Origin: Oscillospiraceae bacterium
GTDB lineage: Bacteria > Bacillota > Clostridia > UMGS1810
DNA: 39,913 bases
Assembly (NCBI GenBank): GCA_015069095.1
Contig: SVJH01000019.1
Span: 1-39,913, forward strand
Direction: 5' to 3'
Part shown: piece after piece, positions 1,989-8,852 of the stretch
How the letters are laid out: every line of letters starts with the position of its first letter
Numbering within the stretch: position 1 is the first letter of the stretch
Notes under the pieces: model-generated
Told to the model about the DNA's origin: nothing
What the model saw: the letters and a program-made list of their open reading frames with translations, nothing else
Database searches by the model: none
Made by a program: the position numbers and the translations under genes

Positions 1989-3488
1989 ATGAAGTATCAA
2001 AGTACAAGAAATTCTAATTTAAATCTTGACAGTGCTCAGGCTATAAAAATTGGTATCGCTCCTGATGGCGGTCTTTTTGTACCGGTAAGTATTCCAAAAA
2101 TTTCAGATGAAAAAATTGCATCTTTTGCATCACTTACTTATGTTGAAATTGCAAATGAAATTCTATCTGAGTTTTTAACAGATTACACAGAAGAAGAACT
2201 TAAAGATTGTACAAAAAATGCATATACAAAAGAAAAATTTGAAACAGATGAAATTGCACCTGTTTATAAACTAAATGAAAATGAATACATTTTAGAATTA
2301 TGGCATGGTCCAACTTGTGCATTTAAAGATATGGCTCTTCAGATTTTGCCTCACTTTTTAACAAAAGCAATAAGAAAAACAGGCGAAGAAAAAGACGTTA
2401 TAATTCTTGTTGCTACAAGTGGTGATACAGGTAAAGCTGCTCTTGAGGGATTTAAAGATGTTGACGGCACAAAAATTCAGGTTTTCTATCCAAGAGACGG
2501 CGTAAGTGATATCCAAAAACTTCAGATGACAACTCAGGAAGGAAAAAACGTAAACGTAAGTGCTGTTGAAGGCAACTTTGACGATGCCCAGACAGGTGTT
2601 AAAATTATTTTCTCAAATGATGAGTTTAATAAAGAAGCAAATTCATTAGGATATGTTTTCTCATCTGCAAACTCAATTAACTGGGGAAGACTTGTTCCGC
2701 AGATTGTTTACTACTTTGCTTCATATGCAAAAATGCTTCGTGATGGGTACATTAAAAACGGAGAAAAAATCAATATTACAGTTCCGACAGGTAACTTTGG
2801 AAACATTTTAGCAGCATATTTTGCTATGGAAATGGGACTTAAAGTAAACAAACTTATTTGCGCATCAAACACAAACAATATTCTTACAGATTTTATAAAA
2901 ACAGGTATTTACGATAAAAACAGAAAATTTGAAACAACAATATCTCCTTCAATGGATATTTTAATTTCAAGTAATCTTGAAAGACTTTTATATCTTCTAT
3001 CAGATAGAGATGACAAAAAAGTTTCTGAATATATGAGCCTTTTAAATAAAGAAGGAAAATACGAAATTTCATCTGATATAAAAGAAAAATTAACATCTGT
3101 ATTTTACGGCGGATACTGCGACGATACAGATACTAAAAAAACAATCAAAAATGTGTATGACAAATACTCTTACACAATGGATACACATACTGCAGTTGCA
3201 CAAAACGTTTACGAAAATTATGTAAAAGAAACAGGCGATACTACAAAAACAGTTATAGCATCAACTGCAAATCCTTATAAATTTAACGAAAGCGTGCTTA
3301 GTGCTATAACACCTGATGCATCGCTTGACAATTTAGATGAATTTGAGCTTCTTGATTTACTTAACGAAAAAAGCGGACTTAAAATTCCAAATTCACTTGG
3401 CCTTTTAAAAGAAAAAGAAGTAAGATTCAAAAATTCTTGCAAAAAAGAAGCGCTATGGGACGAAGTTAAAAATTTCTTGACAAAGTAA
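1989..3488 (+). CDS. thrC: Threonine synthase
   Basis: ThrC is a PLP enzyme converting O-phospho-L-homoserine to L-threonine, the last step of threonine synthesis. The 499-aa product is the length of the long (fungal/enterobacterial-like) class. It has the N-terminal signature STRNSN...IAPDGGLFVP, the PLP lysine Lys113 in HGPTCAFKDMALQ, the phosphate/substrate loop VATSGDTGKAALEGF and VPTGNFGNILAAY. ATG 1989 follows AAGGT at good spacing and gives the conserved MKYQSTR start; an ATG at 1971 overlapping the NUDIX stop would add six residues. The last codons contain the -35 box of the aro promoter (3477-3482). No dedicated terminator follows; transcripts would enter the aro leader and meet its conditional terminator. 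Confidence 0.96.
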   Translation: MKYQSTRNSNLNLDSAQAIKIGIAPDGGLFVPVSIPKISDEKIASFASLTYVEIANEILSEFLTDYTEEELKDCTKNAYTKEKFETDEIAPVYKLNENEYILELWHGPTCAFKDMALQILPHFLTKAIRKTGEEKDVIILVATSGDTGKAALEGFKDVDGTKIQVFYPRDGVSDIQKLQMTTQEGKNVNVSAVEGNFDDAQTGVKIIFSNDEFNKEANSLGYVFSSANSINWGRLVPQIVYYFASYAKMLRDGYIKNGEKINITVPTGNFGNILAAYFAMEMGLKVNKLICASNTNNILTDFIKTGIYDKNRKFETTISPSMDILISSNLERLLYLLSDRDDKKVSEYMSLLNKEGKYEISSDIKEKLTSVFYGGYCDDTDTKKTIKNVYDKYSYTMDTHTAVAQNVYENYVKETGDTTKTVIASTANPYKFNESVLSAITPDASLDNLDEFELLDLLNEKSGLKIPNSLGLLKEKEVRFKNSCKKEALWDEVKNFLTK

Positions 3489-3505
3489 CTTTGCAGGCGT
3501 ATAAT
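3477..3505 (+). promoter_or_regulatory. Consensus sigma-A promoter of the aro leader/operon
   Basis: A perfect TTGACA (3477-3482) and a perfect TATAAT (3500-3505) are separated by exactly 17 bp. The -35 lies inside the last codons of thrC. Transcription should begin near 3512, about 28 nt before the leader ORF start at 3540. A full-consensus promoter suggests constitutive, strong initiation, with control moved to the downstream attenuator. Confidence 0.85.
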
Positions 3506-3539
3506 TTAAACAAATAAATAATTATTAAAGGATAAAAAA

Positions 3540-3629
3540 ATGACACATTCTATCGTTTATTCATTTATATTTTTTATCAGCTTGGTTTCTTTTGGACTAA
3601 GCTACTTTATGTGCGAAAATATAATGTAA
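3540..3629 (+). CDS. Putative Phe/Tyr-rich attenuation leader peptide of the aro operon
   Basis: A 29-codon ORF starts at an ATG preceded by AAAGGA (3527-3532) at 7-nt spacing and ends in TAA at 3627-3629. Seven of its 29 residues are aromatic: Phe9, 11, 12, 18 and 23 (all TTT) and Tyr7 and 22; there is no Trp. It lies between a consensus promoter and an intrinsic terminator upstream of aroB, and its stop codon falls inside the 5' arm of an antiterminator stem. This is the geometry of a ribosome-mediated attenuation leader peptide (compare pheL in enteric bacteria). The alternative is a genuine small membrane peptide, since the middle is hydrophobic. The functional assignment is inference; ORF, Shine-Dalgarno and hairpins are directly visible. 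Confidence 0.7.
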   Translation: MTHSIVYSFIFFISLVSFGLSYFMCENIM

Positions 3630-3679
3630 ATGAGTGTCAGTTTTAAATAGTGGCTTGTTTTGGAGAACTCATTTACATT
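3579..3679 (+). promoter_or_regulatory. Transcription attenuator: pause hairpin and antiterminator of the aro operon
   Basis: Two structures can form in the leader RNA. AGCTTGGT (3579-3586) pairs with ACTAAGCT (3596-3603) inside the leader ORF, a candidate pause hairpin. AATGTAAATGAGT (3623-3635) pairs with ACTCATTTACATT (3667-3679) as a 13-bp perfect stem. The 3' arm of that stem shares 3667-3671 with the terminator's 5' arm, so the two are mutually exclusive. A ribosome finishing at TAA 3627-3629 would cover the 5' antiterminator arm and let the terminator form. A ribosome stalled at Tyr22/Phe23 (3603-3608) would leave it free. Confidence 0.75.
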
Positions 3680-3693
3680 TGAGTTCTCTTTTT
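3663..3693 (+). terminator. Conditional intrinsic terminator of the aro leader
   Basis: GAGAACTCA (3663-3671) pairs with TGAGTTCTC (3680-3688) around an 8-nt loop and is followed by a run of T (3689-3693, then GTTTTT). It lies 28 nt upstream of the aroB ATG and competes with the antiterminator at 3623-3679. Confidence 0.85.
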
Positions 3694-3720
3694 GTTTTTA
3701 ACTATTTACGAGGTGAAAAA

Positions 3721-4770
3721 ATGAAACTTAATGTTGATGCAAAAAATTTAACATATGAAATTTTAATAGAAAAAGGCGCACTAAAAACGGCTGGAGAGCG
3801 TATTAAAAAAATTGTTTCAGATCACAAACTTTTTGTAATAACTGATGATAACGTTAATAAATATCACGGCGAAACTCTTGAAAAATCTTTAAAAGAAGCC
3901 AAAGTTGATTTTGAAATTATTGTTTTAAATCACGGCGAAAAAACCAAAAGTTTAGATAGCGCAAAGTACCTTTATGATTATTTAATACAAAATAACATAT
4001 CCCGCAAAGATTATATTGCGGCTTTTGGCGGCGGTGTAATTGGGGATTTAACCGGATTTGTTGCATCAACAATTCTTCGAGGTGTAAAATTTATTCAAAT
4101 TCCGACAACTCTTTTATCTCAGGTTGACAGCAGTGTAGGCGGAAAAGTTGCAATAAATTTAGATGGCGGCAAAAATTTGGTAGGAAGTTTTTACCCTCCT
4201 TGCGATGTAATAATAGACCCGCTTATTCTTGAAACACTGCCAAAAGAAGAATTTGCCTGCGGTATGGCTGAAGTTATAAAATACGGCGCAATTTATGATG
4301 AAAGTTTGTTTAACAAACTTTTAGAAAGTGATGCTAAAGAAAATATTGAAGAAATAATATATAGATGCGTTGATATTAAAAGAGAAGTTGTAAGTGAAGA
4401 TGAATTTGATTTAGGCGTTAGAATGATACTTAATTTTGGTCATACATTTGGCCATGTAGTTGAAAGTTATTATAACCTTGAAAAATACAATCACGGTCAG
4501 GCAATAGCCGTAGGTATGGAAAGAATAACTTACGCAACTGAAAAAATGGGTCTTACAGAAGAAGGCACTTATAATAAACTTGTGGAAATATTTAAAAAAT
4601 ACGACCTTCATTTTGAAGATGTTTCAATCTCAAAAGAAGATGGCGAAAAAATACTTTTCCATGATAAAAAATCCGAAACATCATCAATAAATTATGTTAT
4701 TATCTCAAAAATCGGCAAATGCGAAATATTAAAACTTAAAAAAGAGGAAAATCTTTTATGGAAGTATTAA
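3721..4770 (+). CDS. aroB: 3-dehydroquinate synthase
   Basis: AroB converts DAHP to 3-dehydroquinate, the second step of the shikimate pathway, using NAD and a divalent metal. The 349-aa product has the NAD-binding GGGVIGDLTGF (from Gly103), the IPTTLLSQVDSSVGGK segment, and the metal-ligand regions GMAEVIKYGA (Glu184), NFGHTFGH (His241/245) and YNHGQAIAVGM (His258). ATG 3721 follows GAGGTG at good spacing; longer readings to the left would run through the attenuator hairpins and are rejected. It is the first enzyme gene of the aro operon and overlaps aroA by 13 nt. Expression is probably gated by the leader attenuator. Confidence 0.97.
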   Translation: MKLNVDAKNLTYEILIEKGALKTAGERIKKIVSDHKLFVITDDNVNKYHGETLEKSLKEAKVDFEIIVLNHGEKTKSLDSAKYLYDYLIQNNISRKDYIAAFGGGVIGDLTGFVASTILRGVKFIQIPTTLLSQVDSSVGGKVAINLDGGKNLVGSFYPPCDVIIDPLILETLPKEEFACGMAEVIKYGAIYDESLFNKLLESDAKENIEEIIYRCVDIKREVVSEDEFDLGVRMILNFGHTFGHVVESYYNLEKYNHGQAIAVGMERITYATEKMGLTEEGTYNKLVEIFKKYDLHFEDVSISKEDGEKILFHDKKSETSSINYVIISKIGKCEILKLKKEENLLWKY

Positions 4771-6026
4771 AAATAAAAGGCAATAAAGATTTCGTAAAAG
4801 AAATAGAAGCGCCTTCATCAAAATCATTTTCTCACAGATATATTTTAGGTGCATCATTTTGCGGAGAAAAAGTAAGAGTTAAAAATATTATATATTCAAA
4901 AGATACACTTGCAACACTTGGTGCAATTGAGGCTATGGGGGCATCAGTTACAAAGGGAAATGACTATGTCGATGTATTTTTTGACATAAATAACGCAAAA
5001 AAAGAGGATGTGTGTATCGACTGCAATGAGTCTGCATCTACACTTCGTTTTATAATTCCTATATGTGCTGCACTTGGAATTAAATGTAAAATATACGGAA
5101 AACAATCTTTAATGATAAGACCTATAAGTGTATACACAAAAATGTTTGACGAAATAGGATTTGATTATGAATATAAAAAAGGCGAGTATATAAAACTTAA
5201 CGGAAAACTTTGTGGCGGAAAGTATTTAATCGATGGCGACATAAGTTCGCAGTTTATAACAGGTCTTTTGTTTGCACTTTCAGTATTAGATGAAAAAAGT
5301 GAAATTGTAATAAATAAAACATTGGAATCAAAACCGTATGTCGATATTACACTTAGTGTACTTGATTTTTACGGAATTAAAATTAAAAATAACAATTATA
5401 AAAGTTTTGAAATTGAGCCAAATCAAAAATATATTCCAAAAGATGCTTATGTTGAGGGCGACTACTCTCAGGGATGTGCATTTATTGGCGCGGGGGTAGC
5501 GTTTGGAAAGGTAAAAATTAAAAATCTTATAAAGAATTCACCTCAGGGCGATAAAGCATTTATAGATTTTGTAAAGCAACTTGGTGCAAAAGTAGAGGTG
5601 CATACCGATTATGTAGAATGTGAAAAATCAAGCCTTGTATCTGATAAAACGTTTGATGTTTCAAACTGCCCTGATATTACACCGGTGTTTAGTGCGGTAT
5701 GCGCTTTTGCAAAAGGCAAAACAACACTTGTCGGAATAGAAAGACTAAGAATAAAAGAGAGCGACAGAGTAAAATCAATCGTTACAACGCTTAATGCTTT
5801 TGGGGTTAAGGCATCAGACGAGGGCGATAAAATTGTAATTTATGGATGCAAAAACACAAAAGGCGGAGTTTTTGATTCGTTTAATGACCACAGAATTGCA
5901 ATGATGATAAGTATTCTATCACTTGGAACTGATGACGAAGTATATATTAAAACACCAATGTGTGTTGAAAAATCATATCCAAGATTTTACGATGATTTTG
6001 AAGGAATAATTACTGTTATTAAATAA
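4758..6026 (+). CDS. aroA: 3-phosphoshikimate 1-carboxyvinyltransferase (EPSP synthase)
   Basis: AroA transfers the enolpyruvyl group of PEP to shikimate-3-phosphate. The 422-aa product is near the usual length. Visible motifs are the N-terminal APSSKSFSHR, NESASTLRFIIP (the family NxGTxxR/ESGSTLRF region, with Ala where Gly is usual), SSQFITGLLFA, SQGCAFIGAG, NCPDITPVFSAVCAF, ERLRIKESDR and FNDHRIAMM. The second motif (ESASTLRF rather than ESGSTLRF) bears on glyphosate sensitivity class but does not settle it. The start at 4758 follows AAGAGGA and overlaps the end of aroB by 13 nt, indicating translational coupling; aroC follows after 10 nt. Confidence 0.96.
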   Translation: MEVLKIKGNKDFVKEIEAPSSKSFSHRYILGASFCGEKVRVKNIIYSKDTLATLGAIEAMGASVTKGNDYVDVFFDINNAKKEDVCIDCNESASTLRFIIPICAALGIKCKIYGKQSLMIRPISVYTKMFDEIGFDYEYKKGEYIKLNGKLCGGKYLIDGDISSQFITGLLFALSVLDEKSEIVINKTLESKPYVDITLSVLDFYGIKIKNNNYKSFEIEPNQKYIPKDAYVEGDYSQGCAFIGAGVAFGKVKIKNLIKNSPQGDKAFIDFVKQLGAKVEVHTDYVECEKSSLVSDKTFDVSNCPDITPVFSAVCAFAKGKTTLVGIERLRIKESDRVKSIVTTLNAFGVKASDEGDKIVIYGCKNTKGGVFDSFNDHRIAMMISILSLGTDDEVYIKTPMCVEKSYPRFYDDFEGIITVIK

Positions 6027-6036
6027 GGAGATTTTT

Positions 6037-7113
6037 ATGAATACATACGGAGAAAACATAAAATTTTCAATATTTGGCGAATCGCACGGCGTGGGAATTG
6101 GCGGTGTGATAGACGGAATAGGTGCAGGTGAAAAAATTGATTTTGAAAAAATTGATTTTCTTCTTAAACGAAGAAATCACAGAGCATCATATTCAACACA
6201 AAGAAGTGAGCCTGATAAATATGAAATCCTAAGCGGCATTGTAGATGGTGTTACAACAGGTGCGCCAATTGGGTTTATTATAAAAAATCAGGATACAAAA
6301 AGTAATCATTACAGTGTTTTATCTGAAATTATGCGTCCTTCACATTCTGATTATCCTGCATATGTAAAATACAACGGATTTAACGATGTCCGTGGCGGAG
6401 GACATTTTTCAGGCAGAATAACAGCGCCTCTTGTTATTGCTGGTGGATTTACAAAAGATATTCTTTCAAAAAAAGGTGTTAATATTATATCTCACGTAAT
6501 TCAGATTGGCGACATAAAAGGCGAAAGTTTATTAAATAAGGAAATTGATGATAAACTTATAGAAAAACTCAACTCATCTTATTTTCCTGTTTTAGATGAT
6601 AATTTAAAAGAAAAATTTATGGAAGAAATAGAAAAAACAAGATGTGATTTAAATTCTGTCGGCGGAGTTGTTGAAGTTGTAATTACAGGTCTTGATGCAG
6701 GATGTGGCGAGCCGTTTTTCTCTTCGGTTGAATCGCGTCTTGCATCTATGCTGTTTTCTGTTCCTGCCGTAAAAGGCGTGGAATTTGGTTTGGGATTTGA
6801 TATTGCATCAAAAAAAGGCTATGATGCAAATGATTTTTACTATTATGATGAAAATAAAAATGTAAAAACAAAAACAAACAATAACGGCGGAATCCTTGGC
6901 GGTATAACAAACGGAATGCCAATCGTTTTAAGAGTTGCCATAAAACCTACTGCTTCCATTTTTAAAGAGCAGGAAACAATAAACGTAAAAACAAAAGAAA
7001 ACGTAAAATTTTCTTTAGAAGGCAGACACGATGTATGCATTGTACCTCGTGCAGCAGTAGTTTTGGAATGTGCAAGTGCGCTTGCGATATTTGATATTTT
7101 AAAAAACAATTAA
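6037..7113 (+). CDS. aroC: Chorismate synthase
   Basis: AroC eliminates phosphate from EPSP to give chorismate, using reduced FMN. The 358-aa product is of usual length and opens with the conserved FSIFGESHGVGIGGVIDG. It also shows RRNHRASYSTQRSEPD, RPSHSDYPAYVKYNG, FNDVRGGGHFSGRITAP and, near the C terminus, EGRHDVCIVPRAAVVLE. AAGGAG precedes ATG 6037 by 6-7 nt. It is third in the aro operon, in tight spacing with aroA and aroE. A flavin reductase is not encoded here, so the FMNH2 must come from elsewhere in the cell. Confidence 0.97.
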   Translation: MNTYGENIKFSIFGESHGVGIGGVIDGIGAGEKIDFEKIDFLLKRRNHRASYSTQRSEPDKYEILSGIVDGVTTGAPIGFIIKNQDTKSNHYSVLSEIMRPSHSDYPAYVKYNGFNDVRGGGHFSGRITAPLVIAGGFTKDILSKKGVNIISHVIQIGDIKGESLLNKEIDDKLIEKLNSSYFPVLDDNLKEKFMEEIEKTRCDLNSVGGVVEVVITGLDAGCGEPFFSSVESRLASMLFSVPAVKGVEFGLGFDIASKKGYDANDFYYYDENKNVKTKTNNNGGILGGITNGMPIVLRVAIKPTASIFKEQETINVKTKENVKFSLEGRHDVCIVPRAAVVLECASALAIFDILKNN

Positions 7114-7131
7114 AGTGCGGAGGCGAAAAAT

Positions 7132-7920
7132 TTGAAATATGCGCTTATTGGCGAAAAACTTTCTCATTCTTTAAGTAAAGTTTTGCATAATGAGTTTTTT
7201 TCTGTTATAAACGAAAAAAGCACATACGATATGATTGAAATTGAAAAAGACAATTTTGATTGTGTATTTAAAGATGTGCTCAAAAAAGGATATACCGGCA
7301 TAAACGTAACAATTCCGTACAAATTTAAAGTTATGGATTATCTTGATAAAATAGACGATGCTGCAAAAAAAATAGGTGCAGTAAACACAATATGCTTTGA
7401 GGACGGAGTGAAAAAAGGATACAATACCGATTTTTACGGACTTATTGCAACGTATGAAAGGTTTAATGTAAAAATTAAGGATAAAGATGTTGTTATACTC
7501 GGCACAGGCGGAGCATCAAAAGCAGTTGAAAAAAGCGTAGAGCATCTTGGAGCAAAAAGTATTACTTATGTATCAAGAGATAAATCAAAAAAACTAAATT
7601 ATAAAGTGATTGATTATTTAGATAAAATAACAGGCGATGTACTAATAAATTCAACACCAGTAGGGATGTATCCGAAAATGGATTTGGCGCCTGTTTGCGA
7701 TACATCGTCATTTAGTGATGTTGTGGATTTAATTTATAATCCGTACGAAACACTTCTTTTAAAAAATGCAAAAAAAAGCGGTGCAAACACTGTAAACGGA
7801 CTTTATATGCTTGTTGCACAGGGAATTTGCTCGCAACAGTTATGGCATAAAAAAGAGTTTGATAAAAGTATCATAGACAAAATATATGAAAAAATCAAAG
7901 ATGAAATTAAGGTGAATTAA
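7132..7920 (+). CDS. aroE: Shikimate dehydrogenase
   Basis: AroE reduces 3-dehydroshikimate to shikimate with NADPH. The 262-aa product has the shikimate-binding SHSLSKVLHNEFF, the catalytic lysine region GINVTIPYKFKVMDYL, GAVNTI, GYNTDFYGL (catalytic Asp), the nucleotide loop GTGGASKAVEK and NSTPVGMYP. The start is TTG at 7132, supported by GGAGG (7119-7123) at 8-nt spacing and by the sequence MKYALIGEKLSHS that begins exactly where AroE proteins begin; no ATG fits. Its stop is one base before the TTG of aroQ, so the operon is tightly packed. Confidence 0.95.
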   Translation: MKYALIGEKLSHSLSKVLHNEFFSVINEKSTYDMIEIEKDNFDCVFKDVLKKGYTGINVTIPYKFKVMDYLDKIDDAAKKIGAVNTICFEDGVKKGYNTDFYGLIATYERFNVKIKDKDVVILGTGGASKAVEKSVEHLGAKSITYVSRDKSKKLNYKVIDYLDKITGDVLINSTPVGMYPKMDLAPVCDTSSFSDVVDLIYNPYETLLLKNAKKSGANTVNGLYMLVAQGICSQQLWHKKEFDKSIIDKIYEKIKDEIKVN

Positions 7921-7921
7921 A

Positions 7922-8359
7922 TTGAAAATACTTGTTATAAATGGTCCTAATATAAATATGCTTGGTGTAAGAGAACCTGATATTTACGGAAAAAGCACAT
8001 ACAATGACCTTATAGATTTGATAAAAAATTATGCAAAAGAAATAGACGTTAACGTTTCGTTTTTTCAAAGTAATCACGAAGGTGCACTTGTTGACGAAAT
8101 ACAAAAAGCATATTTTGATAAAATAGACGGAATTGTTATAAATCCTGCGGCGTATACTCACACATCAGTGGCACTACTCGATGCTTTAAAAAGTGTTAAC
8201 ATACCTGCAGTTGAGGTGCATATTTCAGATGTTTCAAAACGTGAAGATTTCAGACAGATTTCGTATGTAAGAAACTACTGTTTTAAAACAATATGCGGTC
8301 TTGGTTTTGACGGATACCTTCGTGCAATAGATGCATTAAAGGAGAAAATAAATGGGTAA
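7922..8359 (+). CDS. aroQ: Type II 3-dehydroquinate dehydratase
   Basis: AroQ dehydrates 3-dehydroquinate to 3-dehydroshikimate; type II enzymes form dodecamers. The 145-aa product has all family motifs: NGPNINMLGVREPDIYG (active-site Arg and Tyr loop), FFQSNHEGALVDEIQ, NPAAYTHTSVALLDAL (catalytic His) and VEVHISDVSKREDFRQISYV. The start is TTG at 7922, with AAGGTG (7909-7914) at 7-nt spacing placed in the end of aroE. The 3' end overlaps aroK by 8 nt. In the pathway it acts before AroE, so gene order does not follow reaction order. Confidence 0.96.
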   Translation: MKILVINGPNINMLGVREPDIYGKSTYNDLIDLIKNYAKEIDVNVSFFQSNHEGALVDEIQKAYFDKIDGIVINPAAYTHTSVALLDALKSVNIPAVEVHISDVSKREDFRQISYVRNYCFKTICGLGFDGYLRAIDALKEKING

Positions 8360-8852
8360 TTTTTATCTTATTGGTATGCCTGGATGCGGAAAAAGCACAA
8401 TAGGAAAAGAAATTTCAAAAAAACTTGGAATGGTACTTATTGATGCGGATTTTTATTTAGAAGAAAAAGAAAAAAGAAAAATCAGTGATATTTTTGCGCA
8501 AGATGGCGAAGCGCAATTTAGAAATCTTGAAACTAAGTATTTAAAAGAACTTTCAGAAAATAAAAATATTCTTATTTCAACCGGCGGTGGTGTAATTTTA
8601 AAAGAAGAAAACACCGACATAATGAAAAAAAGCGGAAAAGTTATTTTTATAGATACATCGTGCGAAAACATTTTAAAAAATTCCTCTCTTTTAGGAAGAC
8701 CGCTTCTAAAAGATGATAAAAACAGAATTTATAATTTGTATGAACTAAGATATGAAAAATACATAAAAAGTGCAGATTATATTTATAAAAATGACAAAGA
8801 TATAAAAAGTGCAGTGGAAGAAATTTCAAAATTTATTATAAAAAACAGATAA
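8352..8852 (+). CDS. aroK: Shikimate kinase
   Basis: AroK phosphorylates shikimate at the 3-OH with ATP. The 166-aa product has the Walker A GMPGCGKST (residues 8-16), the shikimate-binding Asp in IDADFYLEE, FRNLETKYL (Arg), the glycine triplet STGGGVIL and the lid region GRPLLKDD. ATG 8352 overlaps the end of aroQ by 8 nt and follows AAAGGAG. It closes the aro operon. No clear intrinsic terminator follows; a new promoter begins 6 nt downstream. DAHP synthase, prephenate dehydratase and chorismate mutase genes are not present in this window. Confidence 0.95.
   Translation: MGNFYLIGMPGCGKSTIGKEISKKLGMVLIDADFYLEEKEKRKISDIFAQDGEAQFRNLETKYLKELSENKNILISTGGGVILKEENTDIMKKSGKVIFIDTSCENILKNSSLLGRPLLKDDKNRIYNLYELRYEKYIKSADYIYKNDKDIKSAVEEISKFIIKNR

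Follow-up and report, generated by a model that had tools for sequence, protein, structure and literature searches.

Predicted ribosome-mediated attenuation of a clostridial shikimate operon by a Phe/Tyr leader peptide that apparently belongs to a widespread family of aromatic leaders

Ribosome-mediated transcription attenuators of the trp/phe type, such as those formed by the trpL and pheL leaders of E. coli, are known from Proteobacteria, and the usual picture of Firmicutes is that they sense the supply of aromatic amino acids via T-boxes or TRAP. The latter view, which the original prediction had adopted for the aromatic genes of Firmicutes, is incomplete, since leader-peptide attenuators have been published for his and ilv-leu genes, together with a candidate for aroF of Acholeplasma (PMC9413887; PMC6123439; PMC8632094). 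Attenuators with His leader peptides have been predicted in the B. cereus group, in some Eubacteriales including C. difficile and in Erysipelotrichales (PMC9413887), and ribosome-mediated attenuation of ilv-leu genes is experimentally supported in S. aureus and L. monocytogenes (reviewed in PMC6123439). The uORFC-13-1 motif of Acholeplasma aroF comprises a candidate upstream ORF (uORF) with promoter, ribosome binding site and terminator before the DAHP synthase gene; its 24 representatives derive only from Acholeplasma and environmental sequences, and at least one Phe codon has been described in it (PMC8632094).

Here we analyze an element lying between thrC and aroB in a stretch of 39,913 nucleotides from an Oscillospiraceae genome (contig SVJH01000019.1), hereafter called the window. 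The element is very probably a ribosome-mediated transcription attenuator that controls the aroBACEQK operon through a Phe/Tyr leader peptide, a prediction which invokes a classical, already known mechanism. It resembles trpL and pheL in having a short leader ORF with many codons for the products of the pathway, an antiterminator set against a terminator, and a stop codon placed so that a terminating ribosome masks the 5' arm of the antiterminator (strand 2). It differs from them in being found in another phylum, in its unrelated peptide and in its presumed targets, which are the common shikimate genes under Phe and Tyr codons only. The published His attenuators of Firmicutes differ from the window in having His codons in a row, in controlling his operons and in occurring in few lineages, and those of ilv-leu in their branched-chain amino acid codons and genes. 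The uORFC-13-1 motif, which we could compare by its description only, shares with the clostridial leaders a candidate aromatic-codon uORF at DAHP synthase outside Proteobacteria.

The element begins with a sigma-70-type promoter, TTGACA-N17-TATAAT (3477-3505; this and all following features lie on the + strand), which matches the consensus at 12/12 positions and whose -35 box falls within the final codons of thrC (stop codon 3486-3488). The Shine-Dalgarno sequence AAAGGA (3527-3532) follows, 7 nt before the ATG at 3540 that opens a leader ORF of 29 codons (3540-3629, stop codon 3627-3629) with the translation MTHSIVYSFIFFISLVSFGLSYFMCENIM*. This peptide, which has no match among Pfam or NCBIfam profiles, is specified by five Phe and two Tyr codons, at positions 7, 9, 11, 12, 18, 22 and 23, and by no Trp codon. 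An ORF of 20-45 codons with Shine-Dalgarno sequence, ATG and at least seven aromatic codons arises in 0.36% of shuffles; the proportion of 7/29 is modest by comparison with the 11-12 aromatic codons of sister leaders (binomial P of 0.015 against the usage of the operon). The first gene of the presumed controlled operon, aroB (3721-4770), matches TIGR01357 above its cut-off, and NCBIfam matches identify the remainder as aroA, aroC, aroE, aroQ and aroK (4758-8852), of which aroE and the shikimate kinase gene aroK were called by their best family, with scores under some curated cut-offs.

The complete leader folds more stably than any of 200 shuffles (z=-4.4). Within the leader ORF lies a pause-type hairpin (3579-3603, -10.2 kcal/mol) that none of 2000 synonymous recodings equals in stability (z=-5.7) and that, unlike the situation in the trp/phe-type attenuators of Proteobacteria, is separate from strand 2. 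The latter (3623-3635), inside which the leader stop codon falls, forms 13 perfect pairs with strand 3, the 3' arm of the antiterminator (3667-3679), a pairing with p=0.003-0.005 against shuffles. Strand 3 in turn overlaps the 5' arm and loop of an intrinsic terminator (3662-3699, -14.4 kcal/mol) that consists of a stem (3662-3671/3680-3689) and a T-rich tail, so that antiterminator and terminator are mutually exclusive. These parts had been called in the original prediction, and our calculations bear out its consensus promoter, its 29-codon ORF with a good Shine-Dalgarno sequence and seven Phe/Tyr codons, its hairpin, its 13-bp perfect antiterminator and its placement of the stop codon in the antiterminator 5' arm; the overlapping terminator is likewise present before aroB, with its stem beginning at 3662 instead of 3663.

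Given that the element directly follows thrC, and that the corresponding place in one relative (genome G001) has only a hairpin with a T-run, the structure at 3662-3699 might be a plain terminator of thrC accompanied by an unrelated, spurious ORF, with aroB expressed from an unregulated promoter of its own. We reject this reading as highly improbable, because a perfect promoter precedes the hairpin, no second good promoter was found ahead of aroB at 3690-3721, the internal hairpin and the antiterminator exceed chance, and both leader peptide and antiterminator are conserved in the sister genus (see below).

The logic of the presumed attenuator was evaluated by partition function for the RNA transcribed as far as strand 3, to which a ribosome footprint was applied. 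Strands 2 and 3 paired with a probability of 0.95-0.96 when codon 22 or 23 (Tyr22/Phe23) occupied the A site and of at most 0.12 when the ribosome stood between codon 28 and the stop, which reproduces the proposal that completed translation masks strand 2 and that a ribosome stalled at Tyr22/Phe23 leaves it free. Once the RNA is complete, the terminator prevails at equilibrium at every ribosome position, and the switch must therefore be kinetic; known attenuators likewise decide kinetically. A possible strand 1, or anti-antiterminator (3560-3571), lies inside the leader and could form 12 pairs, including two G-U, with 3623-3634. In comparison with trpL and pheL, the classical strand 1 is only a candidate in the window, where its pairing with strand 2 reaches p=0.02 against shuffles yet is matched by 15% of synonymous recodings; as it is not significant, the untranslated leader may read through. 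In the sister-genus leader the partition function favours 1:2 pairing when the ribosome is absent.

From these features we infer pausing, kinetics and a response to Phe and Tyr supply in the following manner. Transcription would start near 3512, and RNA polymerase would make the leader ORF and probably pause at the 3579-3603 hairpin during ribosome loading. With ample Phe-tRNA and Tyr-tRNA, the ribosome would reach the stop codon and cover strand 2 (3623-3635), whereupon strand 3 would pair with strand 4 and transcription would end near 3690-3699. When charged Phe- or Tyr-tRNA is scarce, the ribosome would stall on codons 7, 9, 11, 12, 18, 22 or 23, leaving strand 2 free to capture strand 3 before strand 4 exists, and transcription would enter aroBACEQK. 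Most likely, then, the speed of leader translation decides whether transcription goes on into the aromatic genes.

To place the element among its relatives we used 16 genomes of the family (G000-G015), in which the window genome (G000) is the sole member of its genus. The original prediction had proposed that a conserved Phe/Tyr-rich leader with covarying stems in an alignment of the thrC-aroB region of related genomes would support it. The same element is present between thrC and aroB of G002 (JALEIO010000011, Oscillospiraceae MAG SUG37), a genome of the sister genus, in the order thrC, promoter (TTGACA...TATACT, in the same place as that of the window), Shine-Dalgarno sequence, leader MLTHSFTFYFIINLILFGLGYFVIDKSFCR, antiterminator, terminator and aroB. 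Its antiterminator, GTAGATGAG/CTCATTTAC, has changed in sequence and again includes the stop codon, while the strand 3 sequence CTCATTTAC is kept from the window. The two leader peptides share 12 identical positions, with an alignment score above that of 5000/5000 shuffles, and several of the conserved residues are encoded by different codons owing to synonymous changes. On the other hand, G001, which belongs to the same genus as G002, has neither promoter nor leader ORF in its thrC-aroB region (locus L003, 2560-2640, minus strand), and the hairpin with T-run found there is apparently a degenerated attenuator or a plain terminator. A scan of AroB among GTDB genomes showed that the aroB-type leader is shared only with G002/SUG37, other hits having required a broader profile.

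The window genome does contain five T-boxes, and the terminator might in principle be controlled by a leader sensing tRNA or protein (T-box, TRAP or another RNA-binding antiterminator). We nevertheless give this a negligible chance and reject a T-box at the aroB leader: neither RF00230 nor any other Rfam family matches the window, none is found at the related leader loci, the five T-boxes sit at other genes, and the 150-nt leader, being mostly coding, is too small to accommodate a T-box stem I. These T-boxes (L125-L129, on contigs C36, C44 and C25) precede genes for AMP-dependent or phenylacetate-CoA ligase-like proteins and for a LeuA-like protein, none of them an aromatic biosynthesis gene; two of the ligase-like genes carry an N-terminal XRE-cupin part.

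A second Phe/Tyr attenuator is present in the window genome on contig C8, upstream of pheA-tyrA-aroF, where the leader MNLFLTTSKYFFSFSVVFYFGYAYFAMKKLLVS (11/33 aromatic codons) is accompanied by an antiterminator and a terminator. Leaders of the type MKKLFA(A/-)V(K)EY...YFGYYF, with 11-12/27 aromatic codons, lie before DAHP synthase in both G001 and G002. In G014 two aromatic-rich leader ORFs, MKQFSANFAYNYYYYYHNER and MTFKYTAQFAVWYFYFQRRYEK, stand in tandem before one DAHP synthase gene (L133). A two-leader profile had no believable relatives outside its two genomes, and its best outside hit was rejected as antisense in a sortase-like gene (L112). No clear His-rich leaders were found upstream of hisG in the family of the window.

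Profiles built from 7 and then 21 leaders, a group to which the leader of the window belongs, were run against 391 Clostridia genomes and returned 53 hits at E<0.0017, matches weaker than E of about 0.0018 being mostly due to chance. In 52/53 cases the gene that follows on the same strand is aroF, pheA, tyrA or aroB, lying within about 400 nt of the leader, and L247 is the single exception. Some 37 of the hits lie outside the training set of the profile, and together the hits span at least 17 family labels. Further examples with species names, both before aroF, come from the loci of the AroB scan: Clostridium gallinarum (L067) and Candidatus Metaruminococcus caecorum (L050). In one genome (G268, locus L251) the leader is followed by two successive DAHP synthase genes. 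No Rfam family is found at the related loci, and the other leaders show only sub-threshold chance matches in Pfam and NCBIfam.

A terminator-like hairpin lies ahead of the aromatic gene in each of the 61 distinct leaders examined, a count that is weak alone because the selection rule took the best hairpin within 170 nt. Antiterminator pairing, between the 5' arm of the terminator and the stretch around the leader stop, reaches p<=0.05 against shuffles in 41/61 leaders (3 expected), and strand 2 lies within -30 to +15 of the leader stop in 56/61. The combined Fisher value for this pairing is 7e-35, which overstates independence because the leaders are related. Compared with synonymous recodings that drew on the codons of the downstream gene, the leader ORFs are more structured (mean z of -2.2; 39/61 below -1.64).

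The leaders share a motif composed of an aromatic block, G-Y/F-F and then C and K, and this similarity raises the question of whether conservation reflects the peptide and not its control codons. The leader ORF would then encode either a small conserved membrane protein or an arrest peptide that detects a free ligand, like TnaC, which senses free Trp. The leaders are indeed hydrophobic, and the motif ending in G-Y/F-F, often with C-x-K, is common to different operons and families. However, all clear hits precede aromatic genes with overlapping terminator and antiterminator, the aromatic residues are the main constant, the fold is destroyed by synonymous recoding, and serines at three motif columns are encoded by AGC or AGT in 98/98 cases and never by TCN, a bias better explained by RNA pairing than by the residue itself. 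We thus regard a peptide of this kind as very unlikely. Peptide-anchored RNAalifold of 46 leaders yielded no single consensus hairpin, each subfamily having its own register, so that the peptide itself may make some contribution. In view of the excess structure of the ORFs and the serine codon bias, much of the shared motif probably consists of an RNA hairpin plus aromatic codons. It is unlikely, if somewhat less so, that the growing peptide chain responds on its own to aromatic amino acids or modulates stalling, in which case these would be class-wide sensory leaders of aroF, pheA, tyrA and aroB operons.

Returning to attenuation by control codons, the choice of codons can be set beside the biosynthetic capacity of the genomes. 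Anthranilate synthase component I (TrpE, PF04715) was found in 0/16 genomes of the window family versus 14/14 controls, and the whole family has apparently lost Trp biosynthesis. Phe and Tyr thus seem to be the only amino acids that these bacteria require from the pathway for protein synthesis, which fits the restriction of the window control codons to Phe and Tyr. Many leaders from other Clostridia families (e.g. L224 and L234-L256) include a single Trp codon within the motif (SWGYFYF), and those of the trpE-less window family are nearly all devoid of it, the exception being one of the two leaders of G014. The Trp codon may track the presence of trp genes, a relationship predicting Trp codons in leaders where these genes are present and none where they are absent.

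The searchable literature yielded no account of a Phe/Tyr leader from Clostridia, and the family seems undescribed in it; as subscription papers lie outside the coverage of the search, this absence is no proof of novelty. The element of the window apparently belongs to a widespread, uncatalogued clostridial family of aromatic leader-peptide attenuators, whose leaders precede aromatic genes in at least 52/391 of the sampled Clostridia genomes and have no Rfam, Pfam or NCBIfam entry. With attenuators of both the shikimate operon and pheA-tyrA-aroF in one genome, this family would call for a revised picture of how aromatic biosynthesis is regulated in a major gut lineage.
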